Part shown: positions 16,316-46,061 of the stretch, piece by piece
Numbering within the stretch: the first letter of the stretch is position 1
Layout: the number at the start of each line of letters is the position of its first letter
Assembly (NCBI GenBank): GCA_029964075.1
Contig: CM057135.1
Coordinates: 32,911,366 to 32,975,365 of the forward strand
Source of the DNA: Patiria pectinifera
Taxonomy: Eukaryota > Echinodermata > Asteroidea > Valvatida > Asterinidae
Direction of reading: 5' to 3'
DNA length: 64,000 bases
Program-made: the position numbers and the translations under genes
Notes under the pieces: generated by a model
Databases searched by the model: none
The model's input: the letters and a program-made list of their open reading frames with translations, nothing else
What the model was told of the DNA's origin: nothing

Positions 16316-16815
16316 NNNNNNNNNNNNNNNNNNNNNNNNNNNNNNNNNNNNNNNNNNNNNNNNNNNNNNNNNNNNNNNNNNNNNNNNNNNNNNNNNNNNN
16401 NNNNNNNNNNNNNNNNNNNNNNNNNNNNNNNNNNNNNNNNNNNNNNNNNNNNNNNNNNNNNNNNNNNNNNNNNNNNNNNNNNNNNNNNNNNNNNNNNNNN
16501 NNNNNNNNNNNNNNNNNNNNNNNNNNNNNNNNNNNNNNNNNNNNNNNNNNNNNNNNNNNNNNNNNNNNNNNNNNNNNNNNNNNNNNNNNNNNNNNNNNNN
16601 NNNNNNNNNNNNNNNNNNNNNNNNNNNNNNNNNNNNNNNNNNNNNNNNNNNNNNNNNNNNNNNNNNNNNNNNNNNNNNNNNNNNNNNNNNNNNNNNNNNN
16701 NNNNNNNNNNNNNNNNNNNNNNNNNNNNNNNNNNNNNNNNNNNNNNNNNNNNNNNNNNNNNNNNNNNNNNNNNNNNNNNNNNNNNNNNNNNNNNNNNNNN
16801 NNNNNNNNNNNNNNN
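16316..16815. other. Assembly gap (500 N)
   Basis: Exactly 500 undetermined bases, a round figure often used for gaps of unknown size. Open frames drawn across it are artefacts. It interrupts the RAD50 gene. Confidence 0.99.
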
Positions 16816-22866
<6,051 letters not shown>

Positions 22867-24100
22867 TCATACCCACACCACTCACAAAAAAAGGCGCCAA
22901 GCCAGGGGGTAAACAAAACTATAATTTTCTGCATGCAAGTTTGGAAGGGGAAAAAACTCATAAATAAATGGAAATTTATTTTTTTTTTAACTAAACGAAA
23001 ACAAGATAAGGACAATTTGCATCCTGAACATATCTTGAACTACTTTTTGTCTCCGGAATGAGTACATTTTTGTTATTTTATCTTATATTTAATTGTCGTT
23101 TAATTGTTGTTTCTTTTAGTTTGTTTACAATTAATTGTCATTTTCATTCTGTTTCTTGGATGGGGCTGTGATTTTTTGTTACAATTTTTAATGGTTAAAA
23201 CACTGTGTTTAGTTTGCATTCCACTTTTTTCTTCATATAGCATCTCAATGAAGGTCAGTCATTGCAAAAAATGATGATAAGACATGAATCTGGGACTGAG
23301 AAACATTTCCAATTTTGTTAAGAAATACTTAGACCTTTGTTCAGGAAAGAGACTATGCAATCACTATGTACGTATATATGTAGTATGTATGAATGTATGC
23401 GGTATTTTGGTTGAAGTTTCATAACATTTGTCTCATTTCAAAAGTCCAATTGGAACCAAACTTGAATCATAGATGCAACGTGGGACCTTTCATATGATAA
23501 CGATGTCAAAGGTCACATAACAAGGTCAAAGGTCATCTGGGGTCCAGTTGTAAACTTGGCTGAAAATGTAAAATTGGTCTCATTTGAAAAGTTGAAGTCC
23601 AATTTGAACCAAACTTTGGTCATTGATGCAACATGGCAACCTTCATAACTGATCAGTCACTCTTTAAAGATAATCGCGAAAGCAAGCGAGACGCTTTTTT
23701 AATATCTCATTCCTTATCTGAATATCCATGGAAATATTTCAGGAATTTAGTTTAAAAGAAAGTTACCACCAAAAATAGAGACTCTCCTGTTAAGAAATTT
23801 CAAAACAAAGGACATCTAGTTGGTCATGCAGAAGTCTATATCATTGTGCCATCCATGCAAATGTATCCAAGTAACGTAAGAAGCAGATTGAAATCTCCCA
23901 ACAGCTTCAGTTTCCCTATCCTCACTTTCCGTTTCTCAACATTTTACTTCATTCCTTTGAACTTTATATTTTGTTTATTAATGAATAAACACAACCACTT
24001 CTATTTAATGAAGTGATTTTTTGGAAAGAAAGCATGCAACAAAGTAATATTGGCCATGAGCGAAGCATTTGGTTTTTGTTATGTTTTGTTTTGTTTGTTT
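22867..24100 (+). other. RAD50 3' UTR and downstream flank, with candidate poly(A) signals
   Basis: After the TAA at 22864-22866 the sequence becomes AT-rich. Plus-strand AATAAA motifs occur at 22963-22968 and 23984-23989, with another at 24178-24183 already inside the duplicated block. The first, about 100 bases past the stop, would give a short 3' UTR. Which one is used cannot be told from sequence. Confidence 0.4.
23423..23652. repeat. Two-unit imperfect tandem repeat with AGGTCA half-sites
   Basis: The phrases TCTCATTT(C/G)AAAAG, AAGTCCAATTTGAACCAAAC and GATGCAAC(G/A)TGG recur about 150 bp apart. Between the units are AGGTCA motifs at 23510-23515, 23523-23528 and 23530-23535; the last two form a direct repeat spaced by one base. 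That matches a DR1 nuclear-receptor site, but within a repeat this may be chance. Confidence 0.6.
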
Positions 24101-24259
24101 TTAATTGAACTTGTTCATCACTGCTTTGTTACTCTTGCCAATTCACTGAGTACAATTTATTAATAATCATTGTACAGAATAAATATCAAGACTAATTGAT
24201 AATGTGCCTCTTTACCAGTGTCAGTCACGACAAATTAATTGACTCATTTCATTAATCGA

Positions 24260-24490
24260 ATCCAGCTGCTGGCATTATGTTGTGTCCTTGGGCAAGCCAC
24301 TTCACCCCCACTTGCCCCTCTCCCCCCAGGAGTACAAATGGGTGCTGGTATTAGCTGGGGAGTAACCTGCGATGGACTAGCATCCCATCCAGGGGTAATA
24401 GAATATTCTCAGTCGTTTCATGCTACTGAAACTGGAGATAAACGCCGGCCTGATGGGCCACATTGGCTCGTGACAGACTATACTTACTAC
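24260..24490. mobile_element. SINE-like insertion with 13-bp target-site duplication
   Basis: The segment is flanked by TTTCATTAATCGA at 24247-24259 and again at 24491-24503. Copy 2 of the block has a single GTCATTAATCGAT at about 30290, followed by the same downstream sequence, so the empty site is visible. The body contains TGTCCTTGGGCAAGCCACTT and GATGGACTAGCATCCCATCC, phrases of a widespread SINE tail. A 13-bp duplication fits LINE-driven retrotransposition. Confidence 0.88.
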
Positions 24491-24760
24491 TTTCATTAAT
24501 CGATCGGTGAACTGATGCTAAAAGATCTTTATCACAGGTCTACTAAGGAATGTTAGCCTGTAATCAAGTTGGACCGATTTGTTTTTATACGCTGAAGTAT
24601 ATTTCATTACAGCTGACCTCTCGGGAGTTTTTGTACAGCTTGATTTGCGCCCAGTAGTTTCCGCCGATGAGCCAGGAGGGAATCTGAATGGAAGGGATGT
24701 CGATATCGCTCTTTACACTGTACGTGCCCTGGAGATGAGATAAAAAAATCAAATATTTAA

Positions 24761-25296
24761 AGGGTCCATGAAATGAATTTTTCTTAGGAACACATTTTCT
24801 GCAACTTTCTACTCCTCTTAATTATGAAAAGTATTTGACATGCCTTTTTGGTTAATTTTATTCCAAAGTGCACTTCTTTAAACATTAAAACAAATTCCAT
24901 GCTTTTCTGGACAACTGAGGGCGCTGTTGTTGCTGTGATGTCATTTCAGGAAGACACTGTTCAGTTTAAGGGATTTCTGTTCAAATGTGAACCTAAAAAT
25001 CTGCTCATTGAAAACGTGTGAGAAAAGTTTGCTCGTTGGCTTACTGCCATGCACTGCCAAAATAACGAATCAACAAAGGAAAGAAATTTACAACAGCAAA
25101 ATATCAAACATTGAACAGGTTTCTGCCTGAAATGACATCACACTTTTGCTCATGAATATGGACATTTGCATTAGCATAAAAACCAAAAACAAATACCCTT
25201 GAAAATGGCAAAACGAAAATTGAAAATAAGGGTTAAAAGGGACACAAAGGTGCATTTTCAAGGATTGCATTACAAAAATTACATTGCATGGGCTCC
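24761..25296. mobile_element. TTAA-flanked non-autonomous element in intron 3 of GM2A-like copy 1
   Basis: 536 bp between TTAA at 24757-24760 and 25297-25300. The ends AGGGTCCATGAAATG and the complement of CATTGCATGGGCTCC form an imperfect inverted repeat. Copy 2 of the duplicated block lacks it: there the sequence runs directly from GATGAGATAAAATAAAAACA to GAAATGAAGGAATCGTTGGT (about 30867-30915). It differs in sequence from family A. piggyBac-like assignment is inference from the TTAA site. Confidence 0.82.
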
Positions 25297-25794
25297 TTAA
25301 CTTGAAATGAAAGAAACATTGGTATGAAACAATGATTCTTTGCCAGTTTTTTTCCCCACTCTACTCAGACTAAATTCAGATAAAGATATATGAAACTACG
25401 TGTACTAGTAAGTTACTGAGCAGCTGTTTGGAACAGAGTAATAAAAAATAAAGATGGGGAAAATAATATGTCTGATGGCTGATCAACCGGTATTAGTCTT
25501 TGAGACGAAACGAACTTAACACCTGACAACAGTTTCAAATTCAATTTAGACAGTTGGATTAAATAACGAATTCGAGTGACTATTTCCCTAATCGAATTAC
25601 GTATTCAGGATCATTTTAACTTAAACCTAAATAAATAAGTTGTTTTGAATAATCGAATGAAAAGCTGGCTTGGAAAACCTATACAATACTCAGCGGTACG
25701 TGCCAGTCGCGCCAGTTCAAGTTAAAGAGGAATATTTAAATTATCTTAACATATGAGTTGGTAATGAAAGCCAACAAGAAGGTAAACGACTCAC

Positions 25795-25883
25795 GAGCCG
25801 GGCGGGCCGTTGTAGGCGGTAGGCAGGAACTGGCACATGTCTTGGTAGGTACAGCTTCCATAGTCGCTCACACAGGGCATTAC
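25795..25883 (-). other. Shortened exon 3 of GM2A-like copy 1 (52-bp deletion junction)
   Basis: The exon is 89 bp against 159 bp in copy 2. On the minus strand it ends GGCTC then GTGAGT, whereas copy 2 reads GGCTCGTGCCCGG and only 52 bp later reaches ACC then GTGAGT. The trinucleotide GTG occurs at both deletion ends, as expected for a microhomology-mediated or slippage deletion. 52 is not a multiple of three. Confidence 0.88.
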
Positions 25884-25981
25884 CTGGATGCAGGGCGAGA
25901 AACACATTTTAGAGATTTATTAAAACTAAACAAAACAAATTACAAAACGAGGTCAACTATAGTATTCTGAATAGGGGAAAA

Positions 25982-26202
25982 AAGGTCATTGGAAAGATTC
26001 CCATATCTGGGCATCACTATTTTTTCCCTTCAGTGACCTATCAGCCATTAGAAAGTGATGATGTGTCCTAACGAGTCAAATTTAGCAGGAAAATATTGAT
26101 GTATTAACTGAGAAAATACTTATGAATGTCGGACCAGTCTCATACGGTTTGTGCACAGGGTGACACGTGATTGCCAGATATGGGAATCTTTCCAGGTCAC
26201 TT
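25982..26202. mobile_element. TIR MITE in an intron of GM2A-like copy 1
   Basis: The ends GGTCATTGGAAAGATTCCCA and the complement of TGGGAATCTTTCCAGGTCAC form an inverted repeat of about 30 bp that includes GGAAAGATTCCCATATCTGG on both sides. Copy 2 (about 32085-32098) goes straight from AAAATGGGGGTC to TTTTCTTAGGAC and lacks it. No coding content. Confidence 0.82.
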
Positions 26203-27423
26203 TTTTCTTAGGATATTAATTTTGTCCAAGAAACAGCATTCGAGGTTAATCAGGTCAGTTAAGTGGCGGTCGTGAGCCTCAAACTATAAACAGAGTGGAG
26301 GAATGAAACATACACGTTTTGGTAGAAAGATAAAATTGTACGTACACATAGCCTACGGATAATTCAAAATGCCGGAAATTGGGTACATGCAATTGTTCTT
26401 GTCAGCATTTTTGGTTGATTTAATACATTTATTTTAGAAAAAAAAAACAGTTATAAACTTGAAAATCTAATAGAGCTTTTTTTTTTATTGGCCTCGTCTT
26501 AGATTAACTCACCCGCTGGGCAATCAGTCTTCTATGGTGTTTTTAAAGACATTTTTAGTTTATATATATTTCTTTCATGAACTGGTTTAAAAGCGAATTG
26601 TTAAACTCGTACGTAGTGTTTCGCACGCGGAAATGAAATCAAATGTCAAAGTTGGGGAAAAAGGGAAGGAAATCAGCCATACAACATTAAATTTTGCACA
26701 CATCAAATTACAAACGAATGTCGAGATGATATGCACTAGCTTTACCTTTGTCTTACGGACTTTGTGAGGGATTTTTATTAAATCTAATTTCAGGTATAGG
26801 TATTACTAGGCTTTATTTGGTAAACGTAAAATGGAAGCCTGGTCACCTTTCTCTGAATCTTAACAACGGCTTTCAGGGGTGAATCCAGTTCCTCGTCGAC
26901 GTGTGCGTCGATTGACACCCAGACGCTGTTCGGACCGGTCGGGTTCAAGCTGAAGCTCCCCGTTAACGGGGCCCCACCGCTGCTGCAGTCACTAGAACTA
27001 GCGTATTCTTCTATGTTGATCGCACTCTGTGTCACAAGGAGCGAATACCGAAAATAAAGAACCTGAAAACACTCGGAGCGTGATAAAGTATGAAACAAAA
27101 ATGGAAAGACGGACTCAAGACAAAACTGGCAATCTCTGTACGTGCAAATCAAAAGTGCATGCTGTAAAGTTGATTGGTAGAAACATTTTGCAGAATTTTG
27201 TCAGTTAAAAATAAACATACACTGAATTCTTGTATTTACCAAATCGATTTAGATGCTATAGGCTTATTCTGGTTTGGGCTTTTTAGGCCTATTACCAAAA
27301 TTTCATTGCTTTCCTTTTTCTTTCCGCTCTTAGACTGAGTTCCCGGGAGTAAAGTAAACTTGAGTGAATAACTTTAATCATTTCGAAAAATTATTAATTT
27401 TAGAATATGATGTTGCGCCTTAA

Positions 27424-27925
27424 AGGGAAGATACAACATTTGCAAACATCACAAAACGAAATGATCAAATTATCACAAAATATCAAACTGGATTGTTGGG
27501 GAATGACAGTCTAAAGCATCCTGTAAAATCATGATTCCTGATGTGCTGACATTTTCAAGAAAAATGGTATTTTTCCAACGCTGGTTGGAGAAAACTGGCT
27601 TTTTCTCAAAAACTGCTCATAATTTTTCATAATTAGTTATTCCGCGTTTTCTTTGCAATTGATTACACAACTGTGAAGGGGTACAAGCCTGCTAGACTGA
27701 TTCTCTGACCATACAATTCCCCAAAGTCTATAAATTCTCCATTTCATTTTAAATGGGGTCAGGGAACCAGACTACAAGAAAATGGATGGTTTTCTTGGTA
27801 TTTCCAGCATCTACTAGCCCAAAACGTGAAACAAGTCACTTTAACAATATTTGCTTTAACATACTAATCCTCCAAATCGATTTATTTCTGACAAGTGCAG
27901 CAAAAGCAAATGTTGTACTTTCCCT
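27424..27925. mobile_element. TTAA-flanked element, family A copy 2, in intron 1 of GM2A-like copy 1
   Basis: 502 bp between TTAA at 27420-27423 and 27926-27929. The ends AGGGAAGATACAACATTTGC and the complement of GCAAATGTTGTACTTTCCCT match the ends of 3708-4220. In copy 2 of the block (about 33168-33180) the sequence is GTTGCGCCTTAATTG with a single TTAA, the clean empty site. This shows directly that the target is TTAA and that it is duplicated on insertion. Confidence 0.92.
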
Positions 27926-29565
27926 TTAATTGCATGTACGGCCACTTGACACTTACCGCATCTTCGTACACAAGAGCCGCAGCAACCAAACACAGCGTGC
28001 TGATGAACATGGAGAAATTCATTTCGAAGTTCACTGTTTATACCAAGACTGCTTGGATCGGACTTCAGAACGCGCCAAAAGAGAAACCGAGAAAATATAT
28101 ATAGCTTACTGCGGCGGCAGAAGTACGAGTATTTATGCACAATTTATTAATGTGGATACCCAATCCTGGTGTTCTTGGCATTCGACACCGTGTCAAAACT
28201 GTCAATTTGCTTCATGCCAAGTACAGATGTATACTTTTGTTTTCGGCATTAGCGTGTCGAAACACAACAGTTCGAAATTCCCGGCATTTTATTGTGTTGT
28301 TTAATTTCCGAGAATAGGCCTACACTGTAAAAAGTGACGTGTTGGACGATAGATAAAAGTTGATGCTAATTTAAAATTTGAAATTTTATCGGAGATTTTT
28401 TTTTTAATTAAAACTCGAAATGTGCATTTTCATATGTAAATTGTAGTGTAAAGTAACAAAGTCTATGCGAGTCAAAGAAAGCTTGGAATAATCATTTTAC
28501 TACGAGGAGAAGGATGAAACAATGTATAATCTTGACATTATTGAGATCTTTGAAATCCGGATCCTGCAATCTATTCTGTCGACTTTCCTACAACATTGCC
28601 AAACTTATGTTTTGTTATTGCGCCATCTCTCGTTAAAAAGGGAATTTCTTGGCCGGGGTGACATACATAGGGAAATTCCCTTATGCGACCGATTGTGAAG
28701 AGATATCCTGTCTGTGGCATAAAGGGGAAAGGTGACCTGAACCCGTCAGAGAATAACAAATTGAGAACAACGATTTGCTTTGAAAATATACTGCACACAA
28801 AATATTGGCAAACTCCTTGGATATACTCCTTAAGATAAATAAGTAAAAAATGTGGCTGAAAAGAGTTTTGTTAACATGTCAAAAAGGGCCACCCGACTTT
28901 TATTGTCCTGGCCCCGACTTTCATCAGGATTGAAATTCCTTAGAAAACGCATTTTAATTAATGTTGATATGAAAACGATCTTACTTCGAAACTCATTTCA
29001 ACTTAGTAGATACACGTTATATTTGGGACGTTTAGAAAAGCAAGGGTATAAGAACGCATGCGCGCCGACTTGAACTTCGCCCAGCGAGAATCTTGTGTTC
29101 AGTTTGCATTAGGAATTTTTAGTTCCAAATTGTTTTGGAGGTACGTTTCGTGAGTCAAGGTAACGCATCTTTCATATCTACATATCTTTTGCACATTAAA
29201 ACGGATACAATGAAATTCCATTGGGCATTACCGGATACCAAGCATGGACGAGCATGGAGCAATCAGTACAGTGGTACTTGGCAGTGAATGATTTATTTTC
29301 ATTTCATACAAAAATAATTTAAATTGAGAGAATAATTTATGTTTCCTGAGTCAAGCTTAATAGGTAAGTACATCACACTGAAAAACAATAGTTGCACTGA
29401 TCCAATTAATTGTATCAACATCAACATGAAGAAATAACTCGACTTATTACATAAGTTTCATCTGGCATTAAACCATGTACAAAATTACTCCCAAAATAGA
29501 CTCAGTCTCCACATTATAAAACCGAAAACAAAGACATCTATTAATTTGGCCATGCAGAAGCCTGA

Positions 29566-29700
29566 CCAAACGAACAAACAAGCAAACAGTAAACGCACAA
29601 ACTGACGAACGACCAAACAGACAAACAAATCAAGTACAAAGAGACAACAAACAGACAAGTAAAGAACGGACGAACAAACAAACGGACAAACAAGCAATTA
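29566..29700. repeat. Low-complexity ACAAAC-rich tract
   Basis: A run of imperfect ACAAACAAGC / ACAAACGGAC units. On the minus strand it reads as (F/V/C/L)-rich spurious peptide. It lies in the unique spacer between the two duplicated blocks (28963-30129), where I see no gene. Confidence 0.7.
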
Positions 29701-30377
29701 CAAAAATAACAATAATAGGCCCTAGAAATAAAATCAAAATATGTGTATAACTTGCAAATTAAACTTAAAAATAGCAAACACCAGTAGCAAACACATGCAA
29801 TGTATTAAATTGGGAAAAACAATAATAGCAAAACGGACGACCAGAACGATAGAAAAATAACAAACGTTTCAAAAGACATTCCATTAACAGAAAGAGAGAA
29901 AAAACACAGGAGTACAATAACCAAATATTACAAGCATGATAAATGCCCCCTCAAATGTGAACGAAACACCCCTACACCATCCAAAATTAAACAGTTTCTG
30001 GTATCAACTATCAACTTCAAGTTCTGAAAATATTGTGGGAAAACGAACACTCGCCCTATACTTGTAAGCGTCAGTCTAGGGATTTAAGTGGAAAGTAAGC
30101 ATGTCAGTATGCTGTTTTTGGTGTTTTTTTCCAATTGAACTTGATCGTTCGTTTAACTTTTGTTACTCTTGCCAATTTGCAGAGTACAATTTTTACCCTC
30201 AGTACGAAATAAAATATCAAGATGTATTGATAACGTGCCTCTATACCATTCATTGACCTAGGGTCATGACAAATTAATTGCAAAAATGTCATTAATCGAT
30301 TGGTAAACTGATGCTGAAAGATCTTTATCACGCGGAGGAACTTTAGCCTGTAATTATTTTCAAGATATACTTTCAAG

Positions 30378-30660
30378 CAAGGAAGGATCCAGAACACATT
30401 TTTTTGGGGGGGAGGGGGACAGAAATAATTTTGGTCCCCAAAACATTTTCTGGGCCCGCTAATAAAGGGCCCAGAAAATGTTTTGGATTTTAGATACTCT
30501 GTGGTGCGATCTGGGGCAATTTCTGACCACTTCAACTATTTTATTTAGGAAAAGGTGGTGGTGTACGCAGTGCCTGCCTCTATGCGACGTCACTTTAACA
30601 ACTTTTTTTTTTTTTTGGCATGGCCCCAGTTGCCCCCCCCCCCCTCCGGATCCGCCCTTG
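30378..30660. mobile_element. hAT-like MITE with perfect 8-bp target-site duplication
   Basis: 283 bp flanked by CTTTCAAG at 30370-30377 and 30661-30668. The ends CAAGGAAGGATCCAG and the complement of CTCCGGATCCGCCCTTG are inverted. An 8-bp duplication is typical of hAT elements. The interior has G and C homopolymers and an inverted pair CCCAAAACATTTTCTGGGCCC / GGGCCCAGAAAATGTTTTGG (30436-30484, quoted in part). It sits just downstream of the GM2A-like gene 2 stop. Confidence 0.85.
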
Positions 30661-30707
30661 CTTTCAAGATACTACGTTTTGTATAATTATCATGCTCGAC
30701 CGATTCT

Positions 30708-33260
30708 TTATTCTACGTTGAAGTATATTTCATTACAGCCCACTTCACGGTAACCTTCGTACAGCTTGATTTGCGCCCAGTAATAGCCGCTGGACATCCA
30801 ATAATAAGATGGAAGCTCAAATGATGGAATGACGAACTCGCTCTCTGCACTGTACGTGCCCTAGGGATGAGATAAAATAAAAACAATCCAAAAATAGAAA
30901 TGAAGGAATCGTTGGTATGAAATGAAACAAACACTCTGTCCCCACTCTTATTATAATAGATAAATAAACAAATTGCAATGCTTATTATTGCGCTTTCCAT
31001 CGTATCAACAATCTGAAAGTGCTTTACAATTATTCCCTCGATCGTCAGACCACGCGTCAGCCGATATCAACGCACATTCGGTCCTCTCTATACCCTCGCA
31101 GGTAATACTCAGCGAGGGCGGAACACCTGTGAAAGTTGGGGGGGGGGGGGTTCAAAGCGCCGCCAGTGCCGGCTAAACCTCATTCATCAATAGGGCGCCC
31201 TTTTCCAAGAGTACGCTTTTGTGGTGGGACCTACCAAGAGTATTTAACCCCAGTGGAAAAAGTGTGTGTGTGTGTGGGGGCCCTGCGCCCCCGGTTCCGC
31301 CACAGTATTCATACTGCTGAGTGTAGAGAGGCAATTCAGAGAAAGTGCTATGAAGCTGCTTATACGTGTACGATTGAATACCGAAGTTACTGAACAAATT
31401 AGTGTTCTGTTCGGTATAATGTCTTTTTTACAGACAAACATGGGAGTAATAAATAATAAAGATAGGGGAAAATAATATACCTAATGGCTGATCAATTCCT
31501 ATTAAAACGTGTTACACCTGACAACAGTTTCAAATTTGATTTAGACGGTGGATTCGGATAACGAATTGGAGTGACTAATTTCCTCATCGAATTACATATT
31601 CAGGATCATTGTATGTTCAAATGTAATTAAGCGAAATAAATATAGTTTGTTAATTCAATGAGAAGTTGGCAAGGCCTAGAAAACTAGATACCAAACTAAA
31701 CCCATCAGTGCATGTCAGAGCTAGGCGCCTGTTCCATGCAGTTAAATAGAAATAGTATATCTCAACATGAGTTGGTAATTGAAGTACCAATGCTTGTCTT
31801 TACCAAACCGCCCAAAGACAATCAACTCACGGTTTGTAACGGGCATTGGCACGATGGCAGATCCTGGAATGGTGCCGGGCACGAGCCGGACGTGCTGTTG
31901 GAGGGAGGCAGGAACTGACACACGTCTTGATAGGTACAGCTTCCAAAACGGTCTCCATAGCAAGACACTGTGTTCCACCACCATAACACCTAATGACCAG
32001 GGGTGAGGAAAAAAAGGAAAGAGTTATTAAACTAAACAAAATAATCATTCTTACAAAACGAGGTCAGGTTGTATTCTAAAAATGGGGGTCTTTTCTTAGG
32101 ACATGTCCAAGAAAGAGCATTCGTGCACGGTAACTCAAGTCAATAAGCGGCGGCCGTGAACCGCAAAGTATGATGAACCAGAAGTGCAGGACTAAAAGAT
32201 GAATTTATTTTTTGATAAGATAAAAGTGTACGTGAACATGTTACTATAAAAAATTGAGATGATTTGCCTCATCTGTTCGTGGCGTAGAGTAACTCACCCG
32301 CTGGGCAATCAGTCTTCTATTTATAAAAATATTATTCATTGACTTAGCGAATTTTAAAATTCGTACTTATAAATAGCACGCGCAAGCTATGGCGGGCAAG
32401 CGAGACATGTAAAAAGTATGGAGCGCCGATTACATTTCGTTACAGTATTTATATTCTTCTGTATTGGTATACATTTTGTGTACAAAAATGGAAGAAGCCT
32501 GGTCACCTTCGCCTGAATCTTAACAACGGCTTTTAGGGGTGAATCCAGTTCCTCGTCAATGTGTACGTTGACGGAGAAAGAGAGGCTGTTCGGGCCGGTC
32601 GGGTTCACGCTGAAGCTCCCCTTGACTGGGGCTGAACTGCTGCCGCAGTCACTAGAACTAGCGTAGCCAGCTATGTTGATCGCAATCTGTGGCAAAACAA
32701 GTACAGGGAGTTGATGAAGAACTTAGGAACGAACACCAAAAATAAAGAACCTGAAAAAATGGAGGGGGGGGGGTAACGAAATAAAAATACGAAGACGGAA
32801 GACAAACTAGAGGTTAATGAAAACAAAGCAAAATTATTATTGAGAGTTTCTGTATGTAAATCAACAGTGCTGTAAAGTTGATTAGTACAAACATTTGCTG
32901 ATGTTTGATTGAAAATGATAAAATTATCTATCAAAAATGCTTGAACTATTTAAAATTACTCTGTAAAATAAAGCAATAAACGCTGGGGTTATTTACAAAA
33001 TCGATTTAAATGTTGACCTCTCCGATCTGTAAAACATTGCAGTTGTTTTTCCTTCGACTGTCAAACTAAGTCTTGGTCCCCGGCGTATAATGGACACGAG
33101 TTGAATTACTGTAATTATTTCGATTTTTTTGAAATTAATTTTAGAATATGATGTTGTTGCGCCTTAATTGTATATACGGCCACTTGACACTTACCGCATC
33201 CTCGAACACAAGAGCCGCAGCAACCAAACACAGCGTGCTGATGTAGATGGAGAAATTCAT
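30708..33260 (-). CDS. GM2-activator-like lipid-transfer protein, copy 2 (intact)
   Basis: Four minus-strand exons, 33195-33260, 32507-32686, 31831-31989 and 30708-30860, all with GT-AG introns in phase 0, give 185 residues. Residues 1-22 are a signal peptide (hydrophobic STLCLVAAALV). The mature part is an ML-type beta-sandwich of the GM2 activator subtype. It has cysteines at 36, 92, 100, 106, 119, 129, 131 and 177, eight in all, matching the four disulfides of that family. Motifs seen: YGDRFGSCTYQDVC, CPAPFQDLPSCQCPLQT, then GTYSAESEFVIPSFELPS and GYYWAQIKLY. One glycosylation sequon is NST at 113. Length is close to mammalian GM2A (193 residues). The family extracts or presents lipids such as gangliosides to lysosomal enzymes; in invertebrates secreted roles are also possible, so the substrate is not assigned. 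The stop codon TAA overlaps an AATAAA on the minus strand. It lies upstream of its decayed tandem copy. Confidence 0.93.
30985..31370. mobile_element. Insertion unique to copy 2 of the duplicated block (repeat of unknown type)
   Basis: Copy 1 runs from CCCCACTCTACTCAGAC to GTAAGTTACTGAGCAG with little between, while copy 2 has about 390 bp extra. The interior contains AAAGTGCTTTACAATTATTC and TCAGCCGATATCAACGCACA, phrases typical of a dispersed repeat, plus a G-run and a TG microsatellite near 31262. Ends are approximate. Confidence 0.55.
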
Positions 33261-33669
33261 TGCGAAGTTCACTGTTTACCGAGACTGCTTGATCGACTTC
33301 GGGATGCGTCAAATTAGAGAAAATATAGTTAACCTCGGTGGGATAACTCAACCAAGACAAATGAAACTTTACACACAGAGCACGGAGCATTTATGCACCT
33401 TTTATTGATGCGGATACCCAATGCTTCATTAACCAGAACATGTACGTCCGGCTTTTCTTGGCACTCGACTCCGTAATCAACCTATTGGCCAAGCACAGAT
33501 TTTTTTTGGTCAGAATTAGCGGTGCGAAACACAAAATTCCCCATTTCTGTGGTAAACGTTTAGTCAGAAATCTAGAATTGTGGGTTTTTTTTATTAACCA
33601 CTTCGACATGTCTGTCACGGTTCGCGGAGAAGGTCACATAATCGTACATTTAAATCCACTACCGTGTTA

Positions 33670-34225
33670 AAGATATTACAGATAAAAACAGGGTGAAATG
33701 TAAAAAAAAAAATGAAAAATAGATAAACAAAATATACAAGGGCTATACAGATAAACAAGGGCTGACATACATAATACAAGATTATACATACATATACAAA
33801 ATTGACAATTTCTAAACAGGACCAAAGTAATAAATAAGACTACAAGACCATACTACAAACAACACAGATATGAATGCGAAATCACTAAAATCAGGTTGAG
33901 CGGTAAAAAAAATGAAAGAAAATAAAAGGTTACTACACGTAAAAGGTATAAACTCAAGAAAGCAATAAACATGAAAAGAGAAAAAATAAATAATTAATTA
34001 ATTAAACCTTCAGTGAAGGTAACCCGTCAGAGGATAAGTTTAAAAAACAAAACTGCCAATTCTTTGAAAATACTGATAAAAAAACAAATTGGCTAACTCC
34101 TTATATATACAAATAAAAATTTGGCTGAAAAGAGTTTTGATTACATGTCAGAAAGGGCTACCCGACTTTTATTGTCCTTATTTCATCAGGATTGAAATGC
34201 CTCAGAAAACGCATTCTAATTAATA
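33670..34225. other. A-rich end of the duplicated block
   Basis: A-rich sequence with imperfect ATACAAGGGCT / GATAAACAAGGGCT repeats (33735-33765), then the block end that matches 28850-28962 (TTGGCTGAAAAGAGTTTTG). No gene seen. Confidence 0.5.
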
Positions 34226-34558
34226 ATTAAACCTTTTAAGTTTTAATTAATATTAAAACTAATATTAATAATAAAATAAAAAATTTGAACTTAATATTAT
34301 TGCACCATTATGGTAAAACCGGCAATTTATCGGGGACACACCCGGGAATTCCCTCTGCATCCGAAGCAATATCCTGTTTATTTTATAGGTCCACGGGGCA
34401 CTCGATTGATACCAGCTGGTACGAACTAAGGCCGTGCCCGAATTTCCTGGCTAGAATCTTGATACACGAAGATGAAAAAATATCAATCTTTGAAATAATG
34501 TATGGCTTACAATCTGTCTCGAACATTGCCAATTAAACTCAAAGTTATTGTAACATAA

Positions 34559-34999
34559 CATAGGCGTAGTCAGTGGGGGTGGAGGGGGGGGGGGGGAAGG
34601 GGGTTATTTATCCCCCCAATATTTTGTAAAGACTGCCTTTTTCCATTCTCTCTTTTTTTCAAAGGGGTTAACCCCCCCCCCCCCCTTTTTTTAACAAGTG
34701 CCCTTTTTCAAAAAAGAAGTGGTGCCCTTTTTTGTGGCAACTGCCGTTTGGGATGCCTTTTTCATAATTTCGCACATGTATCGCCCTTAAAAGCACCATA
34801 TATTGGCCCTATGTGTGCATAATTGTCTGTTTTGAACAGCGCCCCCATCGACAGAAGGTACCAGCCCCCCTTGCTTTTTGATTTTACAGAGACCAAGTGT
34901 CCGGGAAAAAAAACTTTCTACATTTCACAACGGATGTGCAAGTGCCTTTTTCCAAAAAAAAAAATACCCTCCAATAAAAATGACCGTGCTACGCCCCTG
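34559..34999. mobile_element. TIR element with GGCGTAG ends
   Basis: The ends CATAGGCGTAGTCAG and the complement of CGTGCTACGCCCCTG are inverted. The interior has long G and C runs and repeated GTGCC(C/T)TTTTT phrases. It resembles the element at 55430-55710 in its GGCGTAG end. The target duplication is unclear (CATAA on both sides but offset). Confidence 0.55.
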
Positions 35000-37154
35000 C
35001 ATAATGGTAAAATAAGCTGCTCGGGGGAAAGACCCGGGAAAACTCCCTCCTGACTGATTACCAAGAAATATCCTGCGGTCCGTCAGACACGAACTGATTC
35101 TCTTATAATTTATATTGACGGGAAAAACTTGAAAACTTTGGAAAGTCTGATAGACCTTCCAAACCGGTTATAACTTTAAAGGTGTTTCCTCGCCCACTTT
35201 GAACGTCAAATCTAAAGCTCTTCGCCTCATTCTTTTCCCAGTAATCAGACGGCTATTGGGATTTTGAGCCAGAATGAACGACGTAGGCCTAGATTTTTGT
35301 TGTTAATACGGACAGAAATTTAATTGCTAAACAGGAAACAGTCGCGTTCACTTATTAAGCATGAATGTTGGAAAGTTGCTTGAATTATCTGTTTTATGTT
35401 TTTCCGGCGAAGCCTTTAATTTAGAAAAACGCACTCAGGCTGTCGATTTAAATGAGTTCACCAAAGCAAAAGATATTAGCCTACAGCGTGGTACGTAGTG
35501 AGCGGGAAAAAAAATCATAATAAACCACATGTCCAACCTATACAAGTCACGTACACCATGCGGAACCGTTACCGATTCAGTAATTTCAATGAATTGAACT
35601 GAAGGCCGGTTACTGTCTTGTGCATGTGGTGATTGCCGATTTTCGATGATTGGTACAATCCTGTTTATTATGAAGGGCCACATTCAACATTTTCTTATTA
35701 CTGGACATTTTACTTGCACATTTTCTTATTACTGGAAAACAAAGGAATTGCCCTTCAACATGGGTGTTTACTATCAAAAAGTCAAAGTGGGAGTTATTCC
35801 TCATTTTGTTATAGCGAGTAATGACGCTAAGGGCCGACGGCGCTATTTTCCGCCAATAAATCAAAATTCGAGTTTTAACCGAGTATTGCTTATAAGAACA
35901 CAGTTTATTGTTACTGAAGCGAAATGAAGACTGATGATTGTGTAGCCTGGATTCGATTGCGCTTATATTAGTGACATCATCCAAGACGTCATTTTATAGA
36001 GACAGTCATAATACCAACTCAAAATCATAATAGGAATCAGTCCCTTGTGATGGTCCGTCCCCGGATGTGCCAAATTTCGGCCCTTGGCTCATGGACTAAG
36101 AGGGGATACTATTTCCTAGGAGAAACTGTCAGGGACACAATATCCTGGCAAAACAAGGAATATCCCGCGGTGGAGGGGGGGGGGGTTCAAAATCACCTTC
36201 TATAAACGTTAGCGTTGTCTCTGTGTTGTCTTTATTCAAGTCTGATTTGTTTCTGTCACTGTTGGACAATACATGGGTCTTGGTAATAGCTTAGATCTGC
36301 GTCCTAGTTCTGTGGTAATAGGCTTTAATTGAGTCTATCGATGAATGCGCGCGCAGACGTCTTCTTTAACAAGCCTGCACGTGTTTCACTGGTATTTCAT
36401 CAACTCTATAGAATTATCATGTAGGCTATGTAATTACGCTGCTACCAGTGAAACTTGAAGTCAGCCATCTTTGTTCGGCGAGGCGCGGGAATTTGGACAC
36501 GTTTCGTGCTCATATTTTGAGATAAAATTTGCATTGCCCAAATGACTTTACGAGAGTCTTCAAGTACTGATTACGTAATGAGTATTGGTCTGCCAAGTAG
36601 GTGAGCGTCGTAGTGAACAGGTGAACCTAACCTACTTCAGTATTAGTTGTCTTGCATTTTGGACCGTTGCATAACTACTGTGCAGATTTAGAGGGGGCCG
36701 GGGGGTGTGATGGCGGGGCGGGGCTTTTGTAAGATGAGAAGGGGGTGGGCTATGTGTGCTCAACCCGCCCTTCAATTTGCGGCTTTTGTTTCCTCCACAA
36801 CCTAGGCTCCCCAGGTCCCCCCCCCCCTCAGCTCTTACTCAATTTTTTTGACTTCATAAATGTTGCAAACAGTGGCGCACCGGGGGCTGCTCGGGGCTTG
36901 AGCCCCCTAAAAGTAGGCTAGAGGTTTGTTAATTTTATTTATTTTTTTTGGGGGGGGTAATTTATTATTTTTTAATCCCATGATTTGCCCTCGGTGATAA
37001 TAAGGTGGCCTATTTTTGAGTACTAGAATAGGGGTGTAAGTAAGTGATGCCACCAACGTCAACATAGTCTGCCCCCGAAAAAAAGAGAAATTAAACACAA
37101 ATTATCAAATTGCTTAGTAAGTTGAATATTGTTTTGAAAATCTTTTTTCCTCAG
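35000..37154. other. Intergenic region, no gene recognised
   Basis: Includes a GC-richer patch at 36330-36520 (GCGCGCGCAGACGTC, GGCGAGGCGCGGGAATTTGG) that could be a promoter or first noncoding exon, and homopolymer-rich remnants near 36690-36950 with CAGTGGCGCACCGGGGG at 36871. No conserved open frame. Confidence 0.4.
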
Positions 37155-37285
37155 ATCAGACAGATTTTTGCATGCTGCCCTATAGCAGGATGGACTTGAC
37201 CAGACCAGTGCCTAGACTAGGCAAGGCAGGCTGGATCTGGATGACCATCACCATGGTGACTGGGATGACCTTAAGCATGTTAAGG
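37155..37285 (+). other. Candidate exon of an unknown gene
   Basis: A 131-bp segment is preceded by TTTTTTCCTCAG and followed by GTGAGT, good splice signals on both sides, and is GC-richer than its flanks. One frame is open throughout and contains KAGWIWMTITMVTGM, which could be a membrane segment. No other exon that would join it is recognised nearby, so it may be noncoding. Confidence 0.3.
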
Positions 37286-37306
37286 GTGAGTCAAACTAAG
37301 CATGCA

Positions 37307-38063
37307 ACCTGCTCCATCAAAACTCATCACAGTGTGCACCCAGGAACCTCAAATTGTCATAGTTAAGGAAAAGATTTGGCACAAAACCAGGTCTTTCCTA
37401 AATTGTTTCTCCTTAGGCCGAGTAAAAAAAAAATAGTTACTCGTCCGGGGTTTTTAAAAAAAAGGAGGAAGCGGGGCTTTTATTTTTTATTTTTTATTTT
37501 TTTTCAACATGACCGCCTTTTCAAAATTTCCTGCAACCGTTGGTGTTCCACTGTTCAAAGACACTTTTAAAGATGAAAGACAACTGACAAGTGGGACAAG
37601 AGAACTGAACATATTTACAGTGTCATTTAGAGTTGTATTGGTATTGGTATTTATTTTCCGATAAATTTGTAGACTTTTTCGGTGTTTTTCTACTACATTT
37701 TTCAAAAATAAAAAATAATAAAAAAATCCAGGCGGCCTCCAAAAAGGAAGCGGGCGGGGACGAGAAACTTGTTTTTTTTTTACTTTGCCTTATTTTGACT
37801 TTGTTGTAATTGGTGATGAAATTTGAAACAACACTTGGACTTTCTGGACAGATCACATGCATGAATGTCTTGTCTGGAAAAAATTAAAGAGGGATGGAAA
37901 ATTGCCTCTTAAATGGTCACTGATTGATTTCGCACAAATTCAAAATCAGGGAAGAAAATCATGGAAGTGAAAGCGTGCAGTCAAATTCAAATGTTAATTT
38001 CATGATTGGTTGATTTTCTTGTTGCTACCAACATATGGTGCACACTTCTTTGATGGAGCAGGT
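37307..38063. mobile_element. Possible 757-bp TIR element
   Basis: The ends ACCTGCTCCATCAAA...AGTGTGCACC and the complement of GGTGCACACTTCTTTGATGG (then AGCAGGT) are inverted over about 30 bp, with a few extra bases in the left end. No transposase frame inside and no clear target duplication. Confidence 0.5.
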
Positions 38064-41000
38064 CTTACAGTTTTCATAGGAGCAAAGCTAGCTAGCTTTA
38101 ATGAAATGCAAATCTTTTCTAATTTTTAAAGATGAGACTGTTTCACAGGGTTGTGCCACATTAACCCTGCAAAATCCTGGAATTTATAGCTGTCGTGCAT
38201 GGAAAGTCATGGAAAAATATTTAGCTATGGCTGCATTCCAGTTTACTATACTTCTTCTTATAAATATGCTTACATGCGCAGTACTTGTTCAGTGTTCAAT
38301 GCACCATTGTGGTGCTTTTGTGGTGCTCAGTGATAACTTGTCAAACTGGAAGGCTAAAAAGCGGTTGCCAGAACAGCATCGAGGAATTGGTCATTGAAAC
38401 CCTAATTATGTTCTGGAAAAGTCATATGGGATTTCATTTGAAGATTACTGTGGGAACTTTGGTTTAAGTTTCTGCATAGCGTCCCTAAAAGTACACACAC
38501 ATGCTCATTATCTTTGGTTGTAACAGAAGACCATGGATGAACACTTTGAAAAAGTTTCACATTTTCTTGTATTCTTTAGGGTGGACCTGATCGTATCCTC
38601 TGTCTCTAAAAACCGAAATGTTTGAATGGATTGGTTTTTTTTTTTACTAAGTTATGGACAAACTTATCGTGGGTTTTAGTGGGAATAACTTTTTCATTGA
38701 TCCTGCCAATACAAAACGCTAAAACTGTTCAATTGTTGGCCCCAAAAAGTGTAATATGTAGCAAGTTCATTGCTCACTTTTCAATCTCTGAGCAACTTTG
38801 TTTTGATAAAGGAAGAAGTGTTTTTTGAAGGAAGACAATTAATCTAGACTGATACTTTGAAATTCTACATTGATAATCATTCGGTGACACATAATAAAGA
38901 GGAAAATACAAATCGTTTTTCCAACCGTGATGGTCATTTGGCTGGTTCGGGATTAGCTATAACATACCCCACAAAATTATACTTGATTTCCCTTGTAAAC
39001 AGTGGCTAGATTTGTTGGTGAAGGTGTCCTGACACTGGATAATTGACGATTCTTACCCATAGGAGAGGCCCATCAGCTTGATTGGCCAGAATATTCCACC
39101 CTCATTTCTTCATTCTTTCCTCTATGAATGACACAACTTCTACAAAGCTACATGAAGCAATTGTGTTTTCATTTTGTCCTCCATACTTTTGTCTTTCAAT
39201 CTTCCTCTATTTCCTCTGTTTGGTTTTCCACGTTTGCTCATGAATCTCAAATTGTTTCTCATATATCATGGCAATATGACAACCAATGTTAATCTTACAT
39301 GTATCTCAATTGATCTTTCATCACAAGTACGTAATAATACCACATTTGAGTAAAAACTCCTCTGCCAAAACATAAATCCAATTCTCTGCAAAACTTTGGG
39401 CTTCAAGTGTCCTAATCGGGGAAACTCTCGCAAAAGAAAAGATGTGCATTGAAACTTTTTTTAAGTACAATCAAAGTCACATAGCTTTCTTAAAGTCAAA
39501 GGCTGGTCTTAAAACTTTGTTAGCACTTCTATATTCATGGAGGGACTTTGTTCGCGTGGATCACAAAAGTGTGGATGAACAGCATTGAAGATTGGTATAA
39601 AAGCTAATAACTGTATTGCAAACATGCAAGTTTGCAGAATGTTCCCTCTTGGATTGAATACAAGGAAATCTTCAATATGTGATGTACAGTCACTAGTCTG
39701 CATTGCTACATCCACAGACTTGGTTAACCCGTTAGATGGAGCGTTCTGTTGATTGCAAAGTCCCTTCAACTCGGGCCGTTAGTAGGGGCGATCGCGTAAT
39801 TTTGTCGGTCTTGTGCACATAACTATTTTTGTGAATGTTAATGGTGGGTCACATTGTGGCAGTCGTGTTTATGTCAGTTGCTTGGGTAGTCACTCAAGTC
39901 AGCCATTCCTGAGAGTCAACCCCCTTCTCTTTGGACACTCACTTCACAAGGCACTCCATTTTCAGCCAGACTTTTTAACTCAACAAGATCCCTTTATGCT
40001 TTTCTGTTGTTTTTCAAATAAGAACAGAGGACTGTTTCAACTTCCATCAGGTTTTGTCCCTGCTGCTCTCCCTCATCTAATGAGGGTCATGTTTTTTTCA
40101 TACAGACCTTTATCAGTTCTTTTCTTTGCTCAAAATACATCATCCTTGCAACTTGAACAATATTCAGCTTTCCTTGTTTCCTGTCTGACATAATTTACCG
40201 ACATTCAAGCTGCAATACGTGTACATGTAGCTCCAGCCCATTTGTACATTATCAAAATATTGAAAACTTTCATCTTAGTTCTTGTGCACTTGTTGCCTGA
40301 CATTTTCTTTAAACTTGTTTACCACTGTACCCAAGCCCCCTCCTTTCGTTTGATCAGTAACAGACAGTCAAACCTTCAATCCTGTCCCCTGCCATGCCTT
40401 TTACACGGGCTAGTCACCAACAGTCAGATCATATTTCTTGTTGGCACGGTGACAGTTATCCGTCAAAACAGTTATCAGACAAAAGCAGGCAACTGATAGG
40501 CACAGCTGGCTTATCAGTCTCATACAGTCAAAGCATGAATGTAACTACATTTGTACATCAGGTTTCATAACAATCACAGCCAGTCAATCCTGCTTTATGA
40601 AGGCAGGGAGCACTCAACTGTTAAAAACAGTCACTTGATTTATTTTGACTGCTGGGCTGGCCTTGTTGAAATTGCCAGCAAGAGAGGGAGGTTGTTCTAA
40701 AAGGCTTCCCTTCTCTTTCTATATTTCTTCCCAAAACATACGCTTGAATGCATTCTCATTTTCAAATCATAAATGCTTGCCCTTGATTGCACTAAATACA
40801 CTGAGAACTTTTTCTCTCATGTCTGAGGCAACTTCAGCCCAGCTTCATGCAGCTCTTACTCAAGCTTCAATGAAAAACACACACATTTATCTATCTTTCT
40901 TTTGCTTTGTTTGAACCCTGTGCCAGACATTGAATTTTCTCTGGACGCCTTTGACATAAGCAAAGCTCCAGACCTTGTGTTTGCTGTACTTTCCAATATC

Positions 41001-42718
41001 CTTGCTCATCATTTCTGTCTATTTCTCATCCCCTCCAAAACAAAAAATGAGTTGTAAAATTTCAAATCTTGAAATCTTTTAATAGAGAAATTGAGTGGTA
41101 GGAATAAACCATGCCAATGATTCTCTATATTCCACCAGAAAGTTTTCTTTGCTTGCAATAAGTGCTGTCAAATGTTGATTTCAAATCTGAGACAGCTTCA
41201 TCAATTGTCATGCAGCAACACTGCTCTTCATACACCTTTGTCTTCTCTCCTTTATCTTTGTCTTCATACACCCACGCTGTTTGGCCAATATGTCAAGTAT
41301 TTAATTAACCATGTACTGGAAACTTTTTCTAGTTCCTGGAAAAATACCAAATTTCCTCAACTGCTGCAATTCTTAGATCGTGTTTATGTGTGTGTGTCTC
41401 TCTCTGTTGACTTCAATACTTGAGCCAACCACAGCCTCCTCCACCCACCTACACCTGCCACAGCTCTCCACTCTACCCCACATTTCCCCACATCCCACCA
41501 CCCCTTGTTGAACAAAAACCAAGTACATGTATCCCTTTAACCTACCACATTTTGCCTTAACTGTCAGGCCAAGCTCTGCATAGCTGTACTTTCACAAATT
41601 TCCTTTTCTCATTCTTCATGCATATTCCTGACCTCCACCCACACTTTCTGCCCCCCTTCCCGGAAAAAAACCCCAACAACAAACAAACAGGAAAAAGGTG
41701 TATCATGCTATAGAGTAGTTTAGTTTTAATCCTTTCATCTAAGGAAGCAGGCAGAAAGTTGACTGGCAATTCAGAAAAAAAAATAGTCTTTTTGCTAAAT
41801 ATTGGTTTCCGAAGTTAAAGGCAGCTTGAATGAATCCAAACATGTTTCTGGACAGGTTCAGCCATGTGTGCTTGATTTTCAAATGCAATGATCAAAATAA
41901 TGTGGATTAATCAAAGCTTTGAAGTTGTTGAATCTGATTTGAAACTCGCTTAACTGTAACTGGTTAATTGGACCTGTATCAAAGGCATTGGTATCAATAC
42001 TTTGTCAATTTAGATAATTTGGTTTGGGGAGTTTCAGCTCGCTGTAATGGCTTGAAGCATGAACCACGTCTCACTCATTCATCAAATTCAGTGGAACACA
42101 TGCTACAGTGTTTAACCTTACTGTGTTCATTCCCGGATGGAGATCCATGAATCTAAACTCCAGACAAACATGTTTACAAAATTGTTGATTCATTCAAAAA
42201 AGGTTAGAGGGCCTCATGAGGTTTTGACCCTGGCATGATGTTGGAGAAAGATTCTGCAAAAGTGCAAAGGTCCAAACCTTAGGTTCATTTACTACTGTGT
42301 ATTTCAAGTCAATCCAGTTACATGCAATAAGCAGTTGTGCAGCAGGTGGTTTTTTTTTCACTTTTCTTTATTCATCAATAAAATTCTGTTCATGTTAAGT
42401 TCTTAATATTTCTTTAACGGAATGAACCTGGACAAAATAAAATACACTAAAAATCCAGACATCATTTCCCTAGAATTACTGTGAAAACTGAGAATAGTGT
42501 TGTGGTTAAGACCTTTTTTCAAGATCTCACACAGATGCTTATAACAAGAAAGGTGAAATGTGAATCGCGTCCAACTTGAATGTATGTTTTGCTTTGAACA
42601 TGCATACAAAACAGATGCTTTCACGTTACTTTGAAAAGACGCTTATTAGGATCATCATTATTGCATTCAGATTTTCTCTGAAAATCTTGAGGTCTTGAAA
42701 GGTCTTGACTGTAGTACT
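38064..42718. other. Non-coding region with pyrimidine-rich plus strand
   Basis: No gene recognised. From about 39100 to 41700 the plus strand is markedly rich in C and T and poor in G, and from about 43600 to 45200 the plus strand is instead rich in G and T. A TG microsatellite is near 41386. The stretch holds one copy of a duplicated segment (40377-40660). Confidence 0.45.
40377..40660. repeat. Dispersed direct duplication, copy 1 (partner 47628-47866)
   Basis: Shares CCCCTGCCATGCCTTTTAC, GGCTAGTCACCAACA, CAGATCATATTTC, GGCATAGCTGGCTTATCA-like and CACAGCCAGTCAATCCTGCT in the same order and orientation with 47628-47866. Ends CACTTGATT(T/G). No coding content. Confidence 0.8.
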
Positions 42719-42938
42719 CAGAAGCGGATCCATTTACGGAAGGGGGATGGAAACCCGCATTTGCTCATGTTGGTGAAACTTTCTGTATTTGAAGTGATTA
42801 AATAGCCAGTTGACAGAATAAAAAACAGGGAACAAAGACAAGACTTTACCTCAAAACAAACAAAAACAGTGTGAAAAATGGGGGGGGGGAGGAGGGGAGG
42901 AGGCCTGCCAGCTGCATCCCCTTCTGGATCCGCTCCTG
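42719..42938. mobile_element. hAT-like MITE with GCGGATCC ends
   Basis: 220 bp with ends CAGAAGCGGATCCAT and the complement of TTCTGGATCCGCTCCTG. The right part has a G-rich run. The terminal motif (CAG-n-GCGGATCCAG) links it to 45826-46030 and 30378-30660. The flanking 8 bp are not an exact duplication. Confidence 0.6.
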
Positions 42939-43420
42939 ACCGACTGCAGGTTTTACCAATTAAAATTACTTCCATTTTTGTTGTTGGTTTGTTTTTTTTA
43001 ATTCAAAAACCAACCACGAATTGTAATTTGTGTACTCAAACATGTCAAAATAACTTCATAATAATGGGAAGCCCCATAGCTACGTTGTATAATTTCTAAA
43101 AAGTCAACATATATTCTTTACACCCATGTAGGAACTTGACCCACACAAATTTGCACAATTTGGTGGCATACACATGCAGCTACTCCTTTTGAAAAACGTG
43201 ATTCATATCATGAAATAGTGCCAAAGGTATGAAATTATTTGAAACAAATCCCCCTTTATTAAAAGTAGATCGTGTCTGCCTTGCTAAATCATAGCCTTGG
43301 GGATTACAAACAAATGATTGGTGGAGTTAACATGTAACTACTTATAGACAAACCAAAATGGGACTTGAAATTGGACTATAATTGCAACTTTAAAAATATT
43401 TTTGTTAACATGTATAATAT

Positions 43421-43680
43421 GGAGAGTTTGTTTCCAAAATGTGATGAACGTCATTTTGTTCCCTTTTAGAATCCTGTTCTCTACTGGCTGCACAAAGTCA
43501 GTTATGACAGCTATTTATAGTCAAACACAATTATTTAAGAGTAGGCCTACAATGATTAATGAAAGTGAAAAACGTAGTTTGGAAACAGCTGATATACATT
43601 TGTACTGTGTATAGTATACAACCTTTGAACTTGGAACTTTTTTTTCAAATGGATATATCACATTTTGGAAACAAACTCCT
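43421..43680. mobile_element. 260-bp TIR MITE
   Basis: The left end GGAGAGTTTGTTTCCAAAAT (then GTGAT) is matched in reverse complement by ATCACATTTTGGAAACAAAC (then TCCT). Inner sequence is non-coding. The target duplication is unclear. Confidence 0.7.
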
Positions 43681-44951
43681 CAAATAGTCAATGATAGTTG
43701 GTTTCTGATTACCAAACTTAGTCACCATTGAGAAGGGTGATCCATTTGGGAAAAAGTTTATTAAAACGAATACTACTGATGTTGACCAAGTCTCTGATCT
43801 GTCAGTTCCTGAAGGAATATTATGTTCAACTTGCTTGCAACTGGCAAACTATATGAGAATAAGGTTATAGTCATTGATGGACAGTGGGTTTTTTTAAGTG
43901 TTACTTATTCAAGTTGATATTGAGAAAGTTTGTCATTATTTGTGACCATTCATTGATGGTTGTTGACGCTACACAGTGGTCACTGGAGAAAGGATTTTGT
44001 TATGGATAAAGAAAGTCTAATCACGTTTTAAAATGTGATTACTGCAAGGATTTTTCATTCTTAATAGTTAATGGATGAAAAGGTTGATCAACTCGAAGGT
44101 TGATCACATGATTGAAAGCTGTTTGGAGAATTAACTGATCGAAGTCAGTGCAGCAAGTTTGTCATGTGTTATTGATGGCAAGAGTTAAACAGAGTGAAGT
44201 TGATTTATGGATGAAGAATTGCAGATCAGTGAGAAGAAACTGGTGACAGTCAGGATATGCTGACCAAAAAATGCTGAGTTTAATCTTTGGTTCTTCTCAG
44301 AACCAAGTTTCTCTTTTGGAGTTGGTCACTTCACATTGTATCTGTAAATTTCTCTCAACTTCCTACAAAGATGATTCATCACTTACTAAGAAGTTGAACA
44401 CTGCTGGAAACAGAATTGATGATTGATATTTATGTTTAGAAAGTCAATCATTTGCAGTGTCATTTAATTGCTGGAGGAACCTGGTCAGCCGAATTGATGG
44501 AGAGGTTGATTATTCATTGCAAACTTGTATGGAGTAATGTCTTCATCTGCATTGAATCATCACTGAACACAGTTTTGTCGCAAATATTTGACAAGAATGG
44601 CAATTGATTGTCTAATGTAAATCTGGAAAGTTACTGAACGCGTTGGAAAACATGCTACAGGTATTGGTGAATGCAATGGATGTCATCAATGTAAAGGTTC
44701 AGTTGACATCACACTGTTGGATCAGAGTTTATCACTTGTCTAGAAAGTGGATTGCTGATTTGAGTCGTCCATCATGGTAGATAATCTTTGACAGCTGAAA
44801 CCTTAATGATTTCATAGGAGTGACGAATATCACAAAATGATGACTTTAATGGAGGAGGTTGAAATCCAAAGTCAGAAGTCCGTTCTAAATGACAGAATTT
44901 ACAAAATTGCATGTCGTCCATTCTGCTGAATTGAAACACTAGCTGAGGCTG
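43681..44951. other. Non-coding region, no gene recognised
   Basis: G- and T-rich plus strand with many short recurrent phrases such as TTGATGG and GGTTGATCA, and no long open frame. I cannot assign a function. Confidence 0.4.
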
Positions 44952-46030: not shown

Positions 46031-46061
46031 TAATTTATGCAAAGTATAGTAAGACAGTATT

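Follow-up and report, generated by a model that had tools for sequence, protein, structure and literature searches.

Transposon insertions probably bracketed by two nested duplications at a GM2-activator-like locus of Patiria pectinifera

Introduction

Do transposable elements that sit in one copy of a tandemly duplicated gene, and are missing from the other, post-date the duplication, and can the locus itself place them in time? A 64,000-nucleotide stretch of Patiria pectinifera DNA (C7:32911366-32975365, C7 being contig CM057135.1; hereafter the window) raises this question: an earlier note, made from its letters, described there a tandem GM2A-like duplication with six transposon insertions, four in one copy and two in the other, all taken to post-date the duplication and to provide a natural clock for several element families. 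In related-empty-site (RESite) logic, an empty site in a relative reveals both the target duplication and an insertion after divergence. We used the empty sites of the two gene copies, c1 and c2, in the same way; the difference here is that several families share one locus and that a larger second duplication supplies a lower bracket.

We propose a history in which transposons inserted between two nested duplications, and hold it to be highly probable. The locus is a compact worked example in which two duplications of unequal age bracket insertions of several families; because they do so, relative insertion ages can be obtained without a separate clock for each family. The events are those of ordinary gene duplication and transposon insertion, with no new kind of system, and general understanding is unchanged by the locus.

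Results

A tandem pair of GM2-activator-like genes

Two four-exon GM2-activator-like genes lie in tandem on the minus strand, in regions at 24.0-29.1 kb (c1) and 30.0-34.3 kb (c2) of the window. Twelve collinear blastn matches of 71-97% identity join 24082-28962 to 30113-34224, and the global alignment that the earlier note had proposed as a check placed 2493 columns at 81.4% identity, with about half of c1 aligning; for this we used a gap-tolerant alignment in place of default MAFFT, which scattered gaps across the unalignable c1/c2 introns. Reversed c2 gave 4 aligned columns and another stretch of the window none, so that collinearity, alignment and near-zero controls together make the tandem duplication real.

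In our exon models c1 (24585..28022) has exons at 28022-27957, 27026-26847, 25883-25795 and 24728-24585, and c2 (30708..33260) at 33260-33195, 32686-32507, 31989-31831 and 30860-30708; the introns are phase-0 and GT-AG. The frames of c2 and of c1' and c2', the counterparts of the two genes in an upstream block described below, are open, with exons of 66, 180, 159 and 144 or 153 bases and proteins of 182 (c1') or 185 (c2 and c2') residues. The frame of c1 is broken: compared with the near-identical c1', its exon 3 lacks 18 bp (in frame) at the start and 52 bp at the end, and because of the latter loss the gene is frameshifted, its translation meeting a stop right past the exon 3-4 junction.

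The GM2A-like name given by the earlier note was borne out. Both proteins scanned against Pfam carry an ML domain (c2, 27.6 bits, E 4.3e-06; c1', 34.1 bits; curated cut-off 22.7), whereas the one raw open reading frame around exon 2 that was scanned matched no Pfam family. Against solved structures, all four sequences matched by the c1' protein at E<=0.1 were GM2 activators (E 9e-25 to 6e-22), aligning to residues 35-179 of its 182. The GM2 activator (GM2A) is an ML-domain lipid carrier; the genes here are putative lipid carriers and differ in being tandem paralogues, with c1 of the window frameshifted.

A tblastn search with the c1' protein returned two relatives. In the one at C7:33.36 Mb, portions of each of the four exons were matched; the other, at about C7:33.028 Mb, is more distant. 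The genes c1 and c2 are therefore part of a local gene cluster. Over the 60 residues of exon 2, c1' and c2' share 41 identities, c1' and the C7:33.36-Mb gene 36, and c2' and that gene 40, so judged by this exon the relative is no clear outgroup to c1 and c2.

Two noncoding stretches of the pair deserve mention. The conserved segment 28740-28962 / 34021-34224 was considered as an exon and rejected, as it precedes exon 1 and c1' lacks most of it; the stretch at 28734-29015 upstream of c1, kept upstream of c2 at 34021-34224 and mostly absent in c1', is a possible promoter-side element. Within intron 2, 31 bp (26505-26535 and 32290-32320) are identical in c1 and c2 and end, in gene orientation, in a donor-like GTGAGT, which may mark an extra exon or an exchange between copies.

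Six elements of several families

The six elements, here i1 to i6, were delimited with the help of family copies fetched from elsewhere in the assembly (613.5 Mb in 1020 contigs): four each for i1, i2, i3 and i5, six for i4 and none for i6. Five of the six borders given by the earlier note held to within 10 bases; i6 lacks definable ends. The first five elements are multi-copy across most of their length and i6 only in its left part. Beyond the window and the block copy, each has at least 38 further places in the genome, with 40 candidates scored per element: i1 at 91-94% identity; i2 at 76-83%, i3 at 85-90%, i4 at 88-94% and i5 at 73-81%, ranges that omit extra partial or lower matches (one, 14, one and three, respectively); and i6 at 78-85%, confined to about its first 160 bases.

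Four elements belong to c1. The first, i1, is a tRNA-type SINE on the plus strand (element 24260-24490, whole 24247..24503) between 13-bp target copies at 24247-24259 and 24491-24503. All four family copies examined extend upstream into one shared head reaching GGGGTTC(G/A)AATCC, which we take, from comparing the heads by sequence rather than by a tRNA-model score, to be the tRNA internal promoter box. By comparison i1 is truncated at its 5' end: it starts at the TCGAATCC box, and its first four bases equal the last four of the 13-bp target, which suggests truncation at a microhomology.

A 203-bp MITE, i3 (element 25991-26193, whole 25983..26201), has inverted ends GGAAAGATTCCCATATCTGG and 8-bp targets at 25983-25990 and 26194-26201 that differ by one mismatch; the flanking 8-mers are identical in one family copy and carry one or two mismatches in the three others, and the ends name no superfamily.

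The other two c1 elements sit between TTAA copies. The 502-bp MITE i4 (element 27424-27925, whole 27420..27929) starts 31 bp within the first intron of c1, following 27 bp and the TTAA, with inverted ends AGGGAARRTACAACATTTGC and TTAA at 27420-27423 and 27926-27929; a TTAA flanks each side of the window copy and of five of the six other copies examined, the sixth having an altered left end. The 536-bp element i2 (element 24761-25296, whole 24757..25300) ends in AGGGT and GGAGC in the window, with TTAA on both sides; in four other copies the left end reads AGCGT or AGTGT and the right, where visible, AGGGC or AGGGA. Work on Xenopus (PMC6004289) gives TTAA target copies and a terminal AGGRR motif as features of the T2-MITE/Kolobok superfamily. 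The termini of i4, AGGGA at both ends, agree with the AGGRR inverted-repeat definition, and i2 resembles the superfamily less well, its ends matching the motif only partly; judged by these ends, i4 is T2/Kolobok-like and i2 tentatively so. A relative of the i4 MITE (about 73-77%) lies in inverse orientation at 3704-4225 of the window, and further relatives at C7:32857342 and C7:32993129.

The two remaining elements belong to c2. The 283-bp i5 (element 30378-30660, whole 30370..30668) has CAAGG ends and 8-bp targets CTTTCAAG at 30370-30377 and 30661-30668; identical flanking 8-mers were also seen in three of four other family copies. Target copies of 8 bp are typical of hAT elements, and we describe i5 as a hAT-like MITE. 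The stretch found only in c2 at 30950..31370, with i6 itself at about 30985-31370, has undefined ends, and its dispersed repeat covers only about 30950-31110.

Empty sites in the other gene copy

Searches for i1-i4 in c2 and c2', and for i5 and i6 in c1 and c1', yielded no match reaching 30 bp at E<=0.01. The four c1 elements are thus absent from c2 and the two c2 elements from c1, as the earlier note had described; remnants of an element shared by c1 and c2, which it had named as the observation that would overturn its reading, were looked for at these thresholds and not found.

To view the sites themselves, we joined the flanks of each element and aligned them to the other gene copy; some joins were slightly off (i1 one extra T, i3 one base short, i5 two short), which does not affect the reading. 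Two sites are fully empty. That of i4 is a single TTAA in c2 with matching bases on both sides, although at 33164-33167 and not at about 33173, where it had been placed; that of i1 is a single target at 30287-30299 with 12 of 13 bases alike, where about 30290 had been proposed. The i3 site is near-clean, with 5 and 4 bases missing beside the target, and at the i2 site the length is about kept (116 vs 113) while the TTAA is not recognisable. At the i5 site the joined c2 flanks exceed c1 by about 45 bp, with no clean empty site, and for i6 a clear empty site in c1 was looked for by joined flanks and not found. The empty sites claimed in the earlier note are therefore visible for i1 and i4, partly so for i2 and i3, and not for i5 and i6.

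Absence from one copy could also arise if some of these elements were ancestral and had been deleted from the other copy. The shorter c1 at i5 and the lack of a clear site at i6 are consistent with such loss, as are the gaps of about 18-220 bp that are common among the four gene copies; i1 and i4, by contrast, leave a single target and little if any further loss, and i3 comes close. Because a chance deletion rarely leaves a single target copy, loss is unlikely at i1 and i4. The C7:33.36-Mb gene, though not a clear outgroup, points the same way: searched for the elements, it shows none of them clearly, the longest match being 29 bp and the lowest E values 0.003 (i5, 15 bp), 0.006 (i2, 18 bp) and 0.008 (i3, 21 bp). 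As an explanation for some of the six differences, we regard ancestral loss as possible but on the unlikely side; it has most room at i5 and i6, where c1 departs from c2, in length or in sequence, outside the element as well. Of the proposal that all six insertions post-date the gene duplication, the part concerning i1-i4 is supported by the aligned sites, and that concerning i5 and i6 is not fully borne out, as they have no clean empty site.

A second copy of the block upstream

Searching the assembly with the i4 MITE and exon 2 revealed a second gene pair about 70 kb upstream, within a second copy of a block of about 45 kb. The downstream copy, D, defined by its homology with the upstream one, covers window 22765..64000 and about 3.8 kb beyond (C7:32934130-32979206); the upstream copy, D', covers C7:32865218-32912310, its right tail being window 1..945. 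Matches at C7:32864592-32864928, considered as a left extension of the block, fall on the edges of an i3-like element (C7:32864680-32864884), and we left them out of the block. The window alone hides this second copy, and the frame of one of its two GM2A-like genes is broken; the earlier reader could have known of neither, and the block copy gives the insertions a lower bracket.

D and D' differ at 2033 of 41106 aligned bases (4.9%), with 2.0-13.8% per 2-kb bin and 2.2-4.0% at the genes. One stretch of D, 1401 bases long and lying downstream of the genes, is matched nearly in full at a single other place, in D' at 94%, the remaining 40 matches being partial and repeat-like. Across window 54000-60000 the divergence rises to as much as 8.7-13.8% per 2 kb, peaking at 56-60 kb.

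All six elements are present in both block copies, and their insertion therefore predates the block split. A seventh, i7, 627 bp with a palindromic end of about 165 bp, is found only in c2' (C7:32873182-32873808). Its family comprises at least 40 near-full-length places at 97-99% identity, three at 90-95% and 44 shorter matches, mostly of the palindromic end (87 matches excluding i7 itself), so i7 is probably a very recently active non-autonomous element. The c1' copy lacks about 220 bp upstream of the gene.

Is the upstream block a true duplication, or is it the second haplotype, which the assembly failed to collapse and set in tandem, so that the differences between blocks, among them i7 and the frameshift of c1 by 52 bp, would be allelic polymorphisms? 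A divergence of 3-4% at the genes would suit a very heterozygous animal. The two copies are similar, lie on the same scaffold and have one 500-N assembly gap (window 16316..16815) between them; a gap between similar copies on one scaffold is a described mark of false (heterotype) duplication (PMC9516828). Unlike such false duplications, however, D and D' have unrelated flanks and a single-copy receptor gene between them. When the 15.4 kb to the right of D' was compared with the 56 kb to the right of D, the one match, of 550 columns at 74%, was repeat-like and none was allelic; on the left, the roughly 6 kb beside D and the 36 kb beside D' share only pieces of 44-154 bp. The uninterrupted rhodopsin-type receptor open reading frame in the unique 15.4-kb flank of D' (12813-14204, minus strand, in the spacer between the block copies) has one match in the assembly, itself, and 1480 bases of one unplaced contig (of about 1000) likewise match only themselves. 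Because the flanks are unrelated and the intervening receptor is single copy, we favour a true segmental duplication, which we judge probable from these comparisons; an uncollapsed haplotype seems to us improbable. The conclusions on i1-i4 are independent of whether the block duplication is real.

A related reading, which we rate as doubtful, takes D and D' to be alleles, or paralogues so recent that they still segregate, with the frameshifted c1 and i7 as living polymorphisms. Were it true, the birth of a GM2A-like gene, the arrival of transposons and the death of a gene would be found in one population, each step datable.

Ages and order of events

Under the segmental duplication that we favour, the two splits differ in depth. 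Synonymous divergence (dS) is 0.40-0.42 between c1' and c2' or c2 and 0.33 between c1 and c2 (three exons), compared with 0.012 for c1/c1' (three exons) and 0.017 for c2/c2'. The noncoding Jukes-Cantor (JC) distance between c1 and c2, 0.227, covers 1850 of 4622 c1 bases (4622 including the inserted elements; blocks >=12) and is probably biased low; the noncoding distances between block copies are 0.032 (c1/c1') and 0.044 (c2/c2').

Stem estimates per lineage, which come from the four to six best-hit family copies of each element (six for i4, four for the others) and so are biased and serve for ranking only, are 0.118 for i5, 0.081 for i3, 0.074 for i2, 0.039 for i1 and 0.022 for i4. Halving the split distances gives 0.11 (introns) or 0.20 (dS) for the genes and 0.016-0.022 for the blocks; i3, i2 and i1 fall between the two splits, i5 lies slightly above the intron value of the gene split and below its dS value, and i4 coincides with the higher of the two block values. 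The firm lower bracket on insertion age is the presence of the elements in both block copies, not these numbers. The natural clock of the earlier note thus yields a relative order, if a coarse one, with 1850 of 4622 c1 bases aligning and a JC distance of 0.23 set against a dS of 0.33-0.42.

Gene conversion between copies could have reset divergence and made the order read from it wrong. The uneven D/D' divergence (2.0-13.8% per 2 kb) would fit such exchange, as would the 31-bp stretch of intron 2, which c1 and c2 share without a difference and from which c1' departs at 4 positions and c2' at 1; the presence and absence of the elements, however, are consistent across the four copies, and most of the aligned blocks of c1 and c2 are highly diverged. 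We consider it very unlikely that conversion has misled the order.

In the history of nested duplications that we propose, a GM2-activator-like gene would first have duplicated in tandem to give c1 and c2 (dS about 0.4). The SINE i1 and the MITEs i2, i3 and i4 would then have entered c1, and the hAT-like MITE i5 and the partly repetitive i6 may have entered c2; the SINE would have arrived by reverse transcription with 5' truncation and the MITEs presumably by transposase-driven insertion. A block of about 45 kb with both genes and all six insertions would later have been copied about 70 kb away (about 3-4% noncoding divergence at the genes), after which the young 627-bp element would have entered c2', c1 would have lost 52 bp of exon 3 and with it the frame, and a stretch of about 220 bp upstream of the gene would have been deleted from c1'.

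Neighbouring features

Four further features of the window were noted. The spacer between the block copies holds, besides the receptor, an uninterrupted RING/B-box/NHL (TRIM-like) open reading frame at 4573-6513 on the plus strand. A repeat at 37122-37397 has no Rfam match at E<=1 and no evident long frame; among the best 40 of 832 candidates it gave 25 matches, 22 on C7 and three on unplaced contigs, with none on other chromosome-sized contigs. At 425-503 lies a tRNA-like match (Rfam 36.5 bits; without a clear anticodon in ARAGORN), perhaps the head of a SINE. A tandem array of about 30 copies of a 16-bp unit occupies 62868-63342 and can be read as a repetitive frame; a similar array is present in D'.
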